A DNA stretch of 48,593 bases, taken from positions 1 through 48,593 of the forward strand of contig JAJPHB010000087.1 of the NCBI GenBank assembly GCA_021325525.1, written 5' to 3'. This document shows, in pieces, positions 2,545 through 45,355 of this stretch. The position numbers and the translations under genes were made by a program. Under the pieces are notes generated by a model. That model was given only the letters and a program-made list of their open reading frames with translations, was not told the DNA's origin and searched no databases. The stretch's first letter is position 1, and every line of letters starts with the position of its first letter. Source of the DNA: Alphaproteobacteria bacterium. Its GTDB lineage: Bacteria > Pseudomonadota > Alphaproteobacteria > ATCC43930 > CGMCC-115725.

Positions 2545-2595
2545 CGGTCGGACTCGGGATGGCGCAGCCGGGCCAGTGCCCGGCGAAGGGCGCGG

Positions 2596-2623
2596 ATTAT
2601 GCCGCCGCGCCGCGCACTGTCAA
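2596..2623 (-). promoter_or_regulatory. Sigma-70 promoter of rplM-rpsI
   Basis: On the minus strand, a perfect -35 TTGACA (2618-2623) is followed after 16 bp by a -10 CATAAT (2596-2601), about 50 bp upstream of the rplM ATG. This is one of the best-matching promoters in the window, as expected for ribosomal protein genes. Confidence 0.75.
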
Positions 2624-2679
2624 GCGGAAAGCCAAGATTTTCCGCGGCTTTCAGCTAGCGGTAACATGATACCGAAGAC

Positions 2680-3105
2680 TCACCCCGCCGCGTGCGGCGG
2701 CAGCGAATAAGTCGCGACGACATGCGCCACCATCTCGCCTTCGCCTTCGGAGAAGAGCTCGACCTCGCCGACGGCAAGGCGCCGGCCGAGCTTCAACAGC
2801 CGGCCCTCGGCGCGGATCGCGGCCGGGGGCGGCTTGCGCAGGAAGTTGATGGTGAGGCTCGTCGTCACCGCGAGCTCGACCCGGCCGATGCGCGAGAGCA
2901 CCGCGGCATAGGTCACGAGATCGGCGAGCCCCATGAGAATGGGGCCGGAGATGGTGCCGCCGGGGCGCAGGAAGTCGGCCTTGAAGGGCATCCGCGCCGT
3001 CACGTGCCCGTCCTCCATCCGCAGGATTTCGGGATCGAAGAGCGCCGCGAAGGGCAGGCTCTCGCGCATCAGCGCCTCGAACTCGGCGATCGTCACCCCG
3101 GCCAT
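2680..3105 (-). CDS. PaaI-family hotdog thioesterase
   Basis: A 141-residue single hotdog-fold protein of the PaaI/YigI acyl-CoA thioesterase type. The central helix segment has the family pattern RPGGTISGPILMGLADLVTY (about residues 47-66), where the Asp is the usual catalytic acid, followed by the strand TTSLTINFLRKP. The substrate is not readable from sequence. It follows alkB by 28 bp on the same strand and probably shares its transcript. A functional link between the two is not known. Confidence 0.8.
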   Translation of the reverse strand: MAGVTIAEFEALMRESLPFAALFDPEILRMEDGHVTARMPFKADFLRPGGTISGPILMGLADLVTYAAVLSRIGRVELAVTTSLTINFLRKPPPAAIRAEGRLLKLGRRLAVGEVELFSEGEGEMVAHVVATYSLPPHAAG

Positions 3106-3133
3106 CGCAGTCTCCCGGTGATCCCGGCGCCCT

Positions 3134-3817
3134 TCAGAGCGCCTTCCTGAAAGTGAGGTTGATGCGGAAGGAACCGGTCAGCGGATGCTCGCCCTCGACC
3201 GGCGCCTCGACGCCGTGGAATGCCATGCGCGCCGGCCCGCCCCAGACGACGACATCGCCATGTTCGAGGCGGATGCGGCGCGGCCGGTCGGAGCGCCGCT
3301 CGCCGCCGAAGAGAAAGGTTGCGGGAAGGCCGAGCGAGACCGAGACGATGGGCTGCGCGTAGTCGCGCTCGTTGCGGTCCTGGTGGAGCGACAGCTTGGC
3401 GCCGGGCGCGTAGCGGTTGACGAGGCAGGCATCGGGGACGAACCCGGCAAAGCCGGCCGTCGCGGCGGCGGCGGCGGCAAGGCGGCGGAAGGCCTCCGGC
3501 AGCGCCGGCCAGGGCCGCCCCGTCTCGGGATCGGTCGCCTGGTAGCGATAGCCGCGGCGGTCGGTGACCCAGCCGGCTTCGCCGCAATTCGTCATCGCGA
3601 CCGACATCGCATAGCCGCCGGGCGTCACCATCCGGCGGAAGGGCGCCGCCACGGCGACCACCGCCACCGCCGCCGCGAGGCGATCCGCCTCCGGCAAGGC
3701 GAAGCCGCGCAGCACCACGGCGCCCTCGACAATCGCCTCGCGGCCAGGCGCGGCAAGGCCGCTCAGCAGATCGCCGAGCGCGCCAGGAACGGCACTCTGC
3801 TTGCGGGGCCGGGTCAT
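3134..3817 (-). CDS. alkB: Alpha-ketoglutarate-dependent DNA repair dioxygenase AlkB
   Basis: Fe(II)/2-oxoglutarate dioxygenase that removes methyl groups from 1-methyladenine and 3-methylcytosine in DNA or RNA by oxidation. The 227-residue protein carries the iron ligands His145, Asp147 (in LHQD) and His201 (in AFHGV) and the 2-oxoglutarate-binding RINLTFR with Arg218 and Arg224. All five sit exactly 14 residues after their E. coli AlkB counterparts. I chose the internal ATG giving MTRPRK because the family begins close to there; an upstream in-frame start at 3871 would add 18 residues. It is divergent from the GST gene, with a 68-bp gap. No Ada gene is near. Confidence 0.93.
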   Translation of the reverse strand: MTRPRKQSAVPGALGDLLSGLAAPGREAIVEGAVVLRGFALPEADRLAAAVAVVAVAAPFRRMVTPGGYAMSVAMTNCGEAGWVTDRRGYRYQATDPETGRPWPALPEAFRRLAAAAAATAGFAGFVPDACLVNRYAPGAKLSLHQDRNERDYAQPIVSVSLGLPATFLFGGERRSDRPRRIRLEHGDVVVWGGPARMAFHGVEAPVEGEHPLTGSFRINLTFRKAL

Positions 3818-3885
3818 GCGCAACCGAGCATAGCGGAGAAGGCCTCCGGCATATATTCTCTCCTCCCCCACTTGCCATCGAGGAC

Positions 3886-4545
3886 ATGATGCCCGAGCTT
3901 CAGATCATCGGCCTTCCGCAGAGCAATTATGTCTGGGTCACCCGCATCGCCTGCGCCGAGAAAGGCGTCTCCTGCACGCTCGTCCCGGTCATGCCGCACA
4001 CGCCGGAGGTCGATGCCGTCCATCCCTTCGGCAAGATTCCGGCGCTGCGCCACGGCGAGGTGACGCTCTGCGAATCGCGGGCCATCGCCTTCTATATCGA
4101 CCATGCCTTCGACGGCCCGCCGCTCACGCCGCGCGATCCTGTCGAGGGCGCCCGCGCCGAACAGTGGATTTCGCTCGTCAACACGCATATCGACCCCATC
4201 GCCGTGCGGCAATATATCGGCGCCCACTTCTTTCCGCGCACCCCCGACGGGAAGCCCGACCGCGCTCGCATCGAGGGCGCCCTCGCGCCGCTCGAAGCGC
4301 AGATCGGCGTCCTCGACCACGCCGTCGCCAAGACGGGATACCTCGTCGGCAGCGCCTTCAGCCTCGCCGACGCCAATCTGATGCCGATCCTCTTCTATCT
4401 CGACAAGATGCCGGAGAGCGGCGCGATGCTGGCGAAGGCGGCGGCGCTCAAAGCCTATTACGACCGCCACATCGCGCGAAAAAGCATCGCCGAGACGATA
4501 CCGCCGCCCTTCCCGGGGCGTTCCTCCTGGAAGTGGGAGGGCTGA
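3886..4545 (+). CDS. Glutathione S-transferase family protein
   Basis: A 219-residue cytosolic GST: an N-terminal thioredoxin-like domain (about residues 3-80, with FGKIPALRHGEVTLCESRAI containing the cis-proline and the glutathione-contacting Glu-Ser) and a helical C-terminal domain with the FSLADANLMPILFYL N-capping box. A Ser/Tyr near the N-terminus (QSNY) may be the catalytic residue. The substrate is unknown. A second ATG directly follows the first, so the start could be one codon later. It is followed 23 bp later by a crotonase-fold gene on the same strand and probably shares its transcript. Confidence 0.9.
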   Translation: MMPELQIIGLPQSNYVWVTRIACAEKGVSCTLVPVMPHTPEVDAVHPFGKIPALRHGEVTLCESRAIAFYIDHAFDGPPLTPRDPVEGARAEQWISLVNTHIDPIAVRQYIGAHFFPRTPDGKPDRARIEGALAPLEAQIGVLDHAVAKTGYLVGSAFSLADANLMPILFYLDKMPESGAMLAKAAALKAYYDRHIARKSIAETIPPPFPGRSSWKWEG

Positions 4546-8460: not shown

Positions 8461-8606
8461 AGCGCCGCGCTCTCGGCTCGCCCCACTCTGGCCTCGAGCG
8501 GATCCGCGGCGCTGCGCGCCGGGCCCATGGCGGCGCCGCGCGGCTGGCGCCTTCGCGGCTCCCGTCGCCGATGCGGCGATATCGCGATCGACAACCGGCG
8601 CAACGG

Positions 8607-8628
8607 ACGATACGTTATATCGTTTCGT
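8607..8628. promoter_or_regulatory. 22-bp palindrome, probable metal-regulator operator
   Basis: Eighteen of 22 positions are symmetric around an AT-rich centre (half-site ACGAtACG, core TTATAT, half-site CGTtTCGT). It ends 37 bp before the ATG of the Zn/Mn-binding protein gene. The size, symmetry and AT-rich centre suit a Fur-superfamily regulator such as Zur or Mur. The regulator assignment is inferred from the target gene. Confidence 0.6.
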
Positions 8629-8665
8629 TGATCCGGCGATCTTGGCCAACTCCGCGGAGGCTGGA

Positions 8666-9586
8666 ATGCGGCAAGGCTTCATCGGGGCCGTCCTGCTCGG
8701 GCTCGCCGTGCTCGCCGCCGCCCCTGCCCTGGCGGAGGAGGCGCGGCTGCCCGTCGTTGCGACCTTCAGCGTCCTTGGCGACATGGCGAAGGCGATCGGC
8801 GGCGAGCATGTCGCGGTGACGACGCTGGTGGGTCCGGACAGCGACACGCATAGCTACGAGCCGACGCCGCGGGATGCGCAGACCATCTCCGCAGCGAAGC
8901 TGCTCATCACCAACGGCCTCGGCCTCGAAGGCTGGCTCGACCGTCTGCGCAGCGCGGCGCAGTTCAAAGGCACGGTCGTGGTGGCGACGGCCGGAATCGC
9001 CCCGCTGACCATAGCGGAGGACGAGGGCGGCGCGGGGGCGCGAGCGGGCAAGCGCGTGCGCGATCCGCATGCCTGGCAAAGCGCGGCCAATGGCGAGGTC
9101 TACGCCGACAACATCATGAAGGGATTGGTCGCCGCGGACCCGGCCCATGCCGATGACTACCGGCGACGGGCGGACGCCTACCGCGCCGAACTCGCCGCGC
9201 TCGACAAGACGATCCGCGAAACGCTCGCCGATATTCCGAAGGAGAAGCGGCGCGTCATCACGACGCATGATGCTTTTCAGTATTACGGACAGGCCTATGG
9301 GGTCGCCTTCCTCGCGCCGCTCGGCGTCACGACCGAAAGTGAACCCTCGGCCGGCGACCTCGCAAAGCTCGAGCGGCAGATCCGGCGCGAGCACATCAAG
9401 GCGCTCTTCCTCGAGAATGTGACGAGCCCGCGCCTCATCGCGCAAATCGCCAAGGAAACCGGCGCCGTCGTCGGGCCTCCGCTCTATTCCGATGCCTTGT
9501 CGAAACCGGACGCGCCCGCCGGCACCTATCTCACGATGCTGGAATACAACACGGCAGTGCTCAAGGCCGGGATGCTGAAGAACTGA
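8666..9586 (+). CDS. Zinc/manganese ABC transporter substrate-binding protein
   Basis: Cluster A-I periplasmic metal receptor (TroA/ZnuA/PsaA family) that captures Zn2+ or Mn2+ for an ABC importer. It has 306 residues, with a signal peptide (about residues 1-23, ending ALAEE). The metal ligands are His62 (THSYEP), His135 (DPHAW), His201 (TTHDAF) and Asp276 (YSDALS). The acidic loop at 118-131 lacks the run of histidines found in many ZnuA proteins. The ATG at 8666 is preceded by GGAGG at 8656-8660; an upstream in-frame TTG at 8642 is less likely. No permease or ATPase gene is adjacent, so it must work with components encoded elsewhere. A strong palindrome precedes it. Confidence 0.92.
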   Translation: MRQGFIGAVLLGLAVLAAAPALAEEARLPVVATFSVLGDMAKAIGGEHVAVTTLVGPDSDTHSYEPTPRDAQTISAAKLLITNGLGLEGWLDRLRSAAQFKGTVVVATAGIAPLTIAEDEGGAGARAGKRVRDPHAWQSAANGEVYADNIMKGLVAADPAHADDYRRRADAYRAELAALDKTIRETLADIPKEKRRVITTHDAFQYYGQAYGVAFLAPLGVTTESEPSAGDLAKLERQIRREHIKALFLENVTSPRLIAQIAKETGAVVGPPLYSDALSKPDAPAGTYLTMLEYNTAVLKAGMLKN

Positions 9587-11533: not shown

Positions 11534-11635
11534 GCCCTCACCCCGACCCTCTCCCGCAAGCGGGAGAGGGAGAAATATTGATGCGAGACTGTATTCTGAC
11601 CCTTTCCCGCGTGCGGGAGAGGGGAGGATGAGGGA
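11534..11635. repeat. Paired palindromic repeat element between convergent genes
   Basis: Two hairpins sit back to back: CCCTCTCCCG/CGGGAGAGGG (11547-11570, loop CAAG) and CCTTTCCCGC/GCGGGAGAGG (11601-11622). The outer CCCTCA (11535-11540) pairs with TGAGGG (11629-11634). The unit matches the element at 45318. Placed between the convergent metY and MFS genes, it may also serve as a bidirectional terminator or mRNA 3-prime end stabiliser. Confidence 0.75.
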
Positions 11636-20871: not shown

Positions 20872-20895
20872 GCCCCCGGCCCTAGGGCCGGGGGC
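20872..20895. terminator. Perfect 24-bp palindrome, bidirectional terminator
   Basis: Arms GCCCCCGGCCC (20872-20882) and GGGCCGGGGGC (20885-20895) around TA form a fully symmetric GC-rich stem. It lies between the convergent secreted-protein gene and hppA. T-rich tracts are short: CTTCGT on the plus side and CCTTTCC on the minus side. Confidence 0.7.
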
Positions 20896-45317: not shown

Positions 45318-45355
45318 GCCCTCACCCTGCCCTCTCCCGCATGCGGGGGAGGGGT
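45318..45355. repeat. Palindromic repeat, same family as 11534
   Basis: CCCTCACCC followed by the hairpin CCCTCTCCCGC/GCGGGGGAGGG (about 45330-45353). It lies just after hemB and before the convergent livF, and could end both transcripts. The first 30 bp match the first hairpin unit at 11534-11570 closely. Confidence 0.75.

Follow-up and report, generated by a model that had tools for sequence, protein, structure and literature searches.

The 22-bp palindrome ACGATACGTTATATCGTTTCGT at positions 8607..8628, just upstream of a gene for a metal receptor, is very probably a Zur box that serves as the operator of this aztC-like gene within a split regulon under zinc control, judging from sequence. 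It lies in a 48,593-nucleotide stretch of alphaproteobacterial DNA (hereafter, the window), which is contig C38 of a 172-contig, 4.79-Mb assembly rated 100% complete. Most likely, the site is a new instance of a known element, the alphaproteobacterial Zur box, in this case before a stand-alone AztC-like receptor gene. Zinc regulation is ordinary here; what is unusual is the gene layout, in which the receptor is split from the transporter.

The receptor gene (8666..9586, plus strand) encodes a periplasmic solute-binding protein of 306 amino acids with a signal-like N terminus. The protein matches the ZnuA profile PF01297 with 290.6 bits (cut-off 29), and its top NCBIfam model is AztC (NF040870), which it covers at profile positions 1-276 of 277. 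Because the score for this model, 289.7 bits, is under the curated cut-off of 350, we use the term AztC-like rather than AztC. The manganese-receptor model NF053842 is matched with 235.2 bits (cut-off 400). Among solved structures, 8svc, 5kzj, 5w56 and 6xpn are the closest, and the receptor aligns with the latter three, of which we assume 5kzj to be an AztC structure. In seven aligned receptor sequences, His135 (of the motif DPHAW) and His201 (of TTHDAF) do not vary, and these motifs correspond to DPHAWQ and AHNAF in the alignment with 5kzj and 5w56. We take these residues to be the counterparts of AztC His138 and His204, and the remaining two zinc-ligand positions are presumably His62 and Asp276. 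In work on AztC (PMC7463823), 6xpn and 5w57 (whose sequence is identical to that of 5w56) are given as AztC, and His138 and His204 are among its zinc-ligand histidines.

The preceding gene, on the same strand, encodes an aminotransferase resembling glutamate-1-semialdehyde aminomutase, and the gene after the receptor carries a CoA-binding domain; neither of the two encodes a transporter component. Among the neighbouring genes tested against profiles, there is no metal-type permease or ATPase, and matches to the permease profile PF00950 lie on other contigs. This agrees with the original prediction, which had described a TroA/ZnuA-type receptor without adjacent transporter genes.

The palindrome itself, to which no strand is assigned, is also as first described: it is symmetric at 18 of 22 positions, has an AT-rich centre and is separated by 37 bases (8629-8665) from the receptor's ATG at 8666. 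What we read as a Shine-Dalgarno-like GGAGG (8656..8660, plus strand) precedes this ATG. The symmetry by itself is unremarkable, as it is at chance level in this DNA. The window contains 40 22-mers with at least 18 symmetric positions (8607-8628 included, and some of them overlapping), specifically 28, 11 and 1 with 18, 20 and 22 symmetric positions, respectively, and ten dinucleotide shuffles of the whole window yield 22-42 such 22-mers each. When only the intergenic region 8461-8665 is shuffled, 18 symmetric positions are attained in 471 of 2,000 cases. Some other palindromes in the window form a set of their own: those at 11548-11569, 11601-11622 and 45331-45352 have the form CCTCTCCCGC-NN-GCGGGAGAGG, recur with small changes and resemble a short palindromic repeat in dispersed copies. 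A perfect, G+C-rich 22-bp palindrome, CCCCCGGCCCTAGGGCCGGGGG, is present at 20873-20894.

What exceeds chance is the letters of the site when they are scored as a Zur box. We used a 17-column matrix derived from 15 training boxes, i.e., 10 zur-proximal boxes and 5 published boxes of Paracoccus denitrificans. The zur-proximal boxes are exact occurrences of GTTA-N5-TAAC, obtained from 9 of 30 zur loci of relatives that were scanned; 5 of the 30 had a site with one mismatch only, and 16 had none. Because these boxes were chosen as exact matches, the matrix favours that core. The published boxes were taken from Table 7 of PMC5387054, and a sixth site in that table, a weak one at norC, was left out. 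Promoters of AztC-type receptors were excluded from the training set, and one of the boxes is from a ZnuA promoter. Within the genome, the matrix scan covered the window and selected stretches, and the whole genome was covered by pattern searches only, so that there may be further Zur targets.

The best-scoring register in the window is ACGTTATATCGTTTCGT (8612..8628, plus strand), with 15.6 bits and rank 1 of 48,577 window positions, and the second is ACGATACGTTATATCGT (8607..8623, plus strand), which overlaps it and has 12.7 bits and rank 2 of 48,577. The third-best score is 10.2 bits. When the intergenic region 8461-8665 was shuffled 2,000 times, 15.6 bits was never attained (the maximum was 12.1), and ten shuffles of the whole window had peak scores of 6.0-12.2 bits. 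On the minus strand, 8612-8626 shares 13 of 15 letters, counted by eye, with pden4139, which is also one of the training boxes and is listed as the zur-promoter box of P. denitrificans in Table 7 of PMC5387054. These results favour the original idea of a Fur-family site and point to Zur as the probable regulator. It is important to note that the receptor box is weak: in leave-one-out scoring, every one of the 15 training boxes (18.5-28.7 bits) exceeds its 15.6 bits, and it has two mismatches to GTTA-N5-TAAC (GTTA-N5-TTTC). A scan for sigma-70-like promoters around the site found none; shuffles average 0.0 as well, and the consensus used may not suit this organism.

Since the two registers start 5 bp apart, at 8607 and 8612, and together span 8607-8628 precisely, we can understand the even-centred palindrome as two overlapping, odd-centred 17-bp Zur-type sites. 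This geometry is frequent. In the loci examined, 109 boxes score 15 bits or more after removal of identical copies; among them are training boxes as well as the receptor site itself and the aztA box described below. In 76 of the 109, the best overlapping second match is 5 bp away, while 3 have a partner at 8 bp and 30 lack a second match that reaches 8 bits. When boxes were simulated with the matrix and given random flanks, only 16-22% had a 5-bp partner, so the matrix itself does not account for the doubling. The 18-bp core of the double site, GATACGTTATATCGTTTC (8609..8626, again with no strand assigned), shares 14 of 18 letters with GATATGTTATAACATATC, which PMC2706843 quotes as the Zur consensus of the Rhodobacter group.

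A structural precedent comes from E. coli Zur, whose crystal structure, as reported in PMC4219657, has two dimers on overlapping RNNNYxxxRNNNY elements that are offset by 5 bp and produce an 18-bp inverted repeat. The core at 8609-8626 matches this two-dimer skeleton, RNNNYRNNRYNNYRNNNY, at 8 of 8 fixed positions. However, the fit is consistent rather than probative, because the skeleton has 220 matches in the window, i.e., 219 besides the site, and the aztA box, when placed in the matching register, departs from it. The residues that link the dimers, Asp49 and Arg52, are described as highly conserved in gram-negative Zur proteins in PMC4219657, and as conserved only in enterobacterial and actinobacterial Zur proteins in the review PMC6103462. 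In an alignment of 4mtd with the Zur-like protein of the present genome, the position of Asp49 is a gap and that of Arg52 is occupied by Ala. Given that this linker is not conserved, cooperative double occupancy of the site is not assured.

We then considered conservation before orthologous receptor genes, using 97 loci. Of these, 80 were the best of 590 confirmed relatives (595 stretches), and so are not a random sample, and 17 were additional; 3 duplicates were dropped and 4 loci were set aside (short upstream sequence or another arrangement). A receptor was classified as stand-alone if the sequence examined, 1.5-5 kb per side and less at contig ends, had no aztB match, and a box was called if at least 15 bits were reached within 350 bp upstream of the receptor. 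Among the loci examined, which include the best 80 of 590, a box is present before 19 of 25 stand-alone receptors (18 of 24 if the window is not counted; several of the 19 are close kin, e.g., six Pleomorphomonas loci), before 6 of 63 receptors that are located behind aztB, and in 2 of 2 divergent arrangements. At the same threshold and in the same loci, again including the best 80 of 590, the receptor coding sequence contains a box in 0 of 25, 2 of 63 and 0 of 2 cases, respectively. The stand-alone loci under the threshold (6 of 25, with the same sampling from the best 80 of 590) include that of a family relative, L023, at 9.4 bits.

Where the receptor lies behind aztB, the 3 kb upstream contain a box in 38 of 63 cases (among loci that include the best 80 of 590), and in 35 of the 49 cases where the full 3 kb of upstream sequence is available. 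For example, in L107, L116, L117, L124 and L166 the box stands before the operon, roughly 1.9-2.6 kb upstream. Because the box precedes the operon in many of these loci and is directly upstream of the receptor in stand-alone ones, it follows the promoter and not the coding sequence. The nearest orthologues keep the core at the same place, as in L012 (whose protein is 61% identical; TTGTTATGTTATATCGT), L013/L098 (ATGTTATGTTATATCAT), L015/L100 (GTGATATGCCATAACAT) and L016 (TTGATATGATATAACAC), and the L023 site, GTGACATGACATACCAT, is the weak one already mentioned. It had been expected that the site would recur in the genome and be conserved upstream of orthologues. This expectation is borne out for the inner core, RYGTTATAWCRY, which also occurs at aztA and before orthologues, and not for the outer ACGA/TCGT arms, which the orthologues do not keep.

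Some of these loci contain further genes of interest. In L100 (positions 3-752), L016 and L023, a gene for a CobW-type GTPase lies on the minus strand, divergent from the receptor across the box; this classification was tested with Pfam in L100, and the same CLCCT motif was seen in L016 and L023. The genes with Zur boxes in P. denitrificans that are presented in PMC5387054 include a COG0523 (CobW-type) gene. In L012, a TonB-dependent-receptor-like gene (2571-3888) that is 3' of the zinc receptor has its own box; the gene is cut at the end of the locus and is just above the Pfam cut-offs. It is possible that it encodes a zinc-specific outer-membrane importer, and TonB-dependent proteins are reported as Zur targets in Caulobacter (PMC4176598). 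A Zur-like box is also found 3' of the zinc-receptor gene of L013, from position 1624 onward. In two genomes, G024 and G031, zur, aztA and aztB share one locus and the receptor is on another contig; both assemblies are fragmented, and each has a further AztC-like match. The only genome of the same genus among those compared (G001; loci L038 and L055) has no close AztC-type receptor, and its best match, which is 32% identical, lies beside zur. This pattern suggests that the type of importer was replaced within the genus.

In the genome to which the window belongs, candidates for the rest of a zinc system are present, on contigs other than that of the receptor within the 172-contig assembly. The permease profile PF00950 is matched by two fragments at contig ends, on C52 (profile positions 2-74) and C165 (74-256), which most simply represent one aztB gene broken by an assembly gap. 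The longer fragment has AztB as its best model, with 180.9 bits for a cut-off of 280, a score that reflects a fragment only. The breaks are located at the right ends of C52 and C165 (loci L007, L010 and L006), and the fragments match adjoining parts of the profile. Before the break, C52 has a Zur-like gene and a gene for an AztA-like ATPase (NF040873, 213.2 bits; cut-off 220). We designate the regulator as Zur-like because its score for NF008646, 111.6 bits, is below the curated cut-off of 167, although this model is the best of the 6 families listed. Its FUR domain scores 42.5 bits (cut-off 23.1), and its second-best match in the PDB is E. coli Zur, 4mtd. The aztA-like and aztB-like genes fit the distant ABC system that the original prediction had envisaged.

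Between the zur-like gene and aztA on C52 stands TGACATGTTATAACATCAA, and its core, ATGTTATAACAT, is the sole exact match in the genome. This aztA box scores 18.7 bits and has a second register of 12.9 bits, likewise 5 bp apart. In the window and the stretches of the same genome that were scored (141,314 bases, with overlapping copies counted), the highest scores are those of the aztA box, 18.7 bits, and the receptor box, 15.6 bits, and the next are 14.4, 14.1 and 14.0 bits. Together with the Zur-box letters of the receptor site, the presence of this twin box beside a zur-like gene suggests that zinc supply, which was proposed from the outset, is the likely signal. As to other components, AztD (NF038015) has no match in the genome, using a model that was matched in 2 of 14 control genomes and was above its cut-off in 1. 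PF01297 was matched just once in the genome, by this receptor, and no ZnuABC was found besides the Azt genes. The main CobW-type gene (locus L192) has no Zur box (best score, 0.3 bits), and PF02492 has two further weak matches in the genome.

Pattern searches of the whole genome found RYGTTATAWCRY exactly at three places: the receptor site, the aztA promoter and C47:42531-42542. With at most one mismatch, this pattern occurs at 20 and 14 places on the two strands, compared with 45 and 46 for a reversed-pattern control, and so only the exact places are meaningful. Similarly, ATGTTATAACAT with up to two mismatches has 5 places versus 7 for the control, and GTTA-N5-TAAC with up to one mismatch has 46 places versus 443 for the reversed control. 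All 46 of these cores were scored, and the nine that reached at least 11.6, as well as C168:25230, were examined in context. None of the ten stretches has a 17-mer at 15 bits, and no obvious zinc gene is among the surrounding genes, whose translations were judged by eye. Because core patterns with mismatches are no commoner in the genome than their reversed controls, the regulon evidence within this genome rests on two places. The half-site pattern ACGAnACG-N6-CGTnTCGT, which had been put forward as a recurring element, did not prove useful as a probe of the regulon: its only exact match is the receptor site, one place has 1 mismatch and the others have 2 (45 places with at most two mismatches; 13 for the control).

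The third exact place, C47:42531-42542 (locus L043), is between a GntR/FCD regulator gene and the ATPase gene of an ABC transporter that is not of a zinc type, and the best register in its locus has 10.0 bits. Given this score and these non-zinc genes, we treated it as unrelated to Zur; it is possibly the operator of the adjoining regulator. Its location is nonetheless relevant to the question of whether the palindrome at 8607-8628 is a chance AT-rich palindrome, or the site of some unrelated dimeric regulator (e.g., of TetR or GntR type) that resembles a Zur box. Such an interpretation could appeal to the GntR-type neighbour of the third core, to the symmetry that is so common in the window and in intergenic shuffles, and to the outer arms that vary among orthologues. 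We consider it improbable, given that no intergenic shuffle attained the Zur score, that the nearest orthologues (L012, L013/L098, L100 and L016) keep the core in this position, and that no regulator is encoded among the neighbouring genes tested.

It might also be supposed that the operator belongs to another member of the Fur family, i.e., a manganese or iron regulator (Mur/Fur) or Irr, and that the receptor binds manganese or iron. The genome does encode a Fur-type protein (L008) and an IrrA protein (L009; NF045678, 217.7 bits, cut-off 150), and the receptor does match a manganese-receptor model, as given above. There is little chance that this is correct, however, since the receptor fits AztC better than the manganese families, the genome's twin core precedes aztA and adjoins the zur-like gene, and, in a comparison that involved Zur motifs only, the site agrees in sequence with both the published Zur boxes and the consensus of the Rhodobacter group. 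No observation made here points to manganese, which the original prediction had offered as an alternative to zinc. The Mur protein of Rhizobium leguminosarum is reportedly one that recognises an "unusual operator".

Finally, the original prediction had raised the possibility of a second receptor. The idea that the protein plays such an auxiliary role for a complete znuABC elsewhere has only the remote location of the transporter genes in its favour and is very improbable, indeed wrong for this assembly: although the genome is rated 100% complete, no other PF01297 protein was found in it, and metal-type permeases appear only as two contig-end fragments, most simply of one gene.

Under the preferred explanation, a split Zur regulon, we propose the following. 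When zinc is sufficient, zinc-loaded Zur, whose gene would be the one on C52, would occupy both overlapping elements and block transcription of the receptor gene. As zinc falls, Zur would leave, and both the receptor gene and the distant aztA-aztB genes, which have a Zur box of their own, would be expressed. The receptor would then pass zinc to AztB-AztA. There would thus be one regulon in two separated transcription units. In this scheme, the binding of Zur, the zinc signal, repression and the pairing of receptor with permease are what we infer from the sequences. A more specific hypothesis can be formulated, though we rather doubt that all of it will hold. In this lineage, AztABC would be divided between two units, one with zur, aztA and aztB and the other with the receptor by itself, and given boxes of 18.7 versus 15.6 bits, the receptor would be derepressed earlier than the transporter. 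Both 5-bp double sites would be read without an Asp-Arg bridge, and any cooperativity would rest on something else.

Comparison with known systems helps to place the site. With the alphaproteobacterial Zur box it shares the GTTATA core around the centre, 14 of 18 letters and a location just upstream of a zinc-receptor gene, but it is more degenerate, is richer in G+C outside the core (the ACGA/TCGT arms) and is weaker than the 15 training boxes. The resemblance to AztABCD of P. denitrificans, as described in PMC5387054 and PMC7463823, is that the receptor, ATPase and permease score best against the AztC, AztA and AztB models and that a Zur box is present at the transporter promoter. However, all three proteins are below the cut-offs of these models (aztB being a fragment), the receptor gene is split from aztAB, and neither AztD nor an additional ZnuABC was found here. 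The E. coli (Zur2)2 operator of PMC4219657 likewise has two overlapping elements 5 bp apart, and the receptor site fits its skeleton fully, whereas the Asp49-Arg52 linker is not conserved and the aztA box misfits the skeleton in the matching register. In the account of R. leguminosarum znuA in PMC12183173, a Zur box is 41 bp upstream of the start, which is a similar distance to that observed here, but that receptor belongs to the ZnuA subfamily, and ZniCBA is present there as a second system for zinc.

The double geometry may be of more general relevance. An even-centred palindrome of 18-22 bp corresponds to two copies, 5 bp apart, of an odd-centred motif of 13-15 bp, which suggests why both even-centred and odd-centred descriptions of the Zur box are in use. 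Since this geometry is frequent without the E. coli linker residues, how two dimers are coupled in other Zur proteins becomes a testable question. For this organism, an orphan receptor gains a predicted function, a predicted signal and a likely link to a transporter on other contigs, and annotation that relies on gene neighbourhoods would miss this link.
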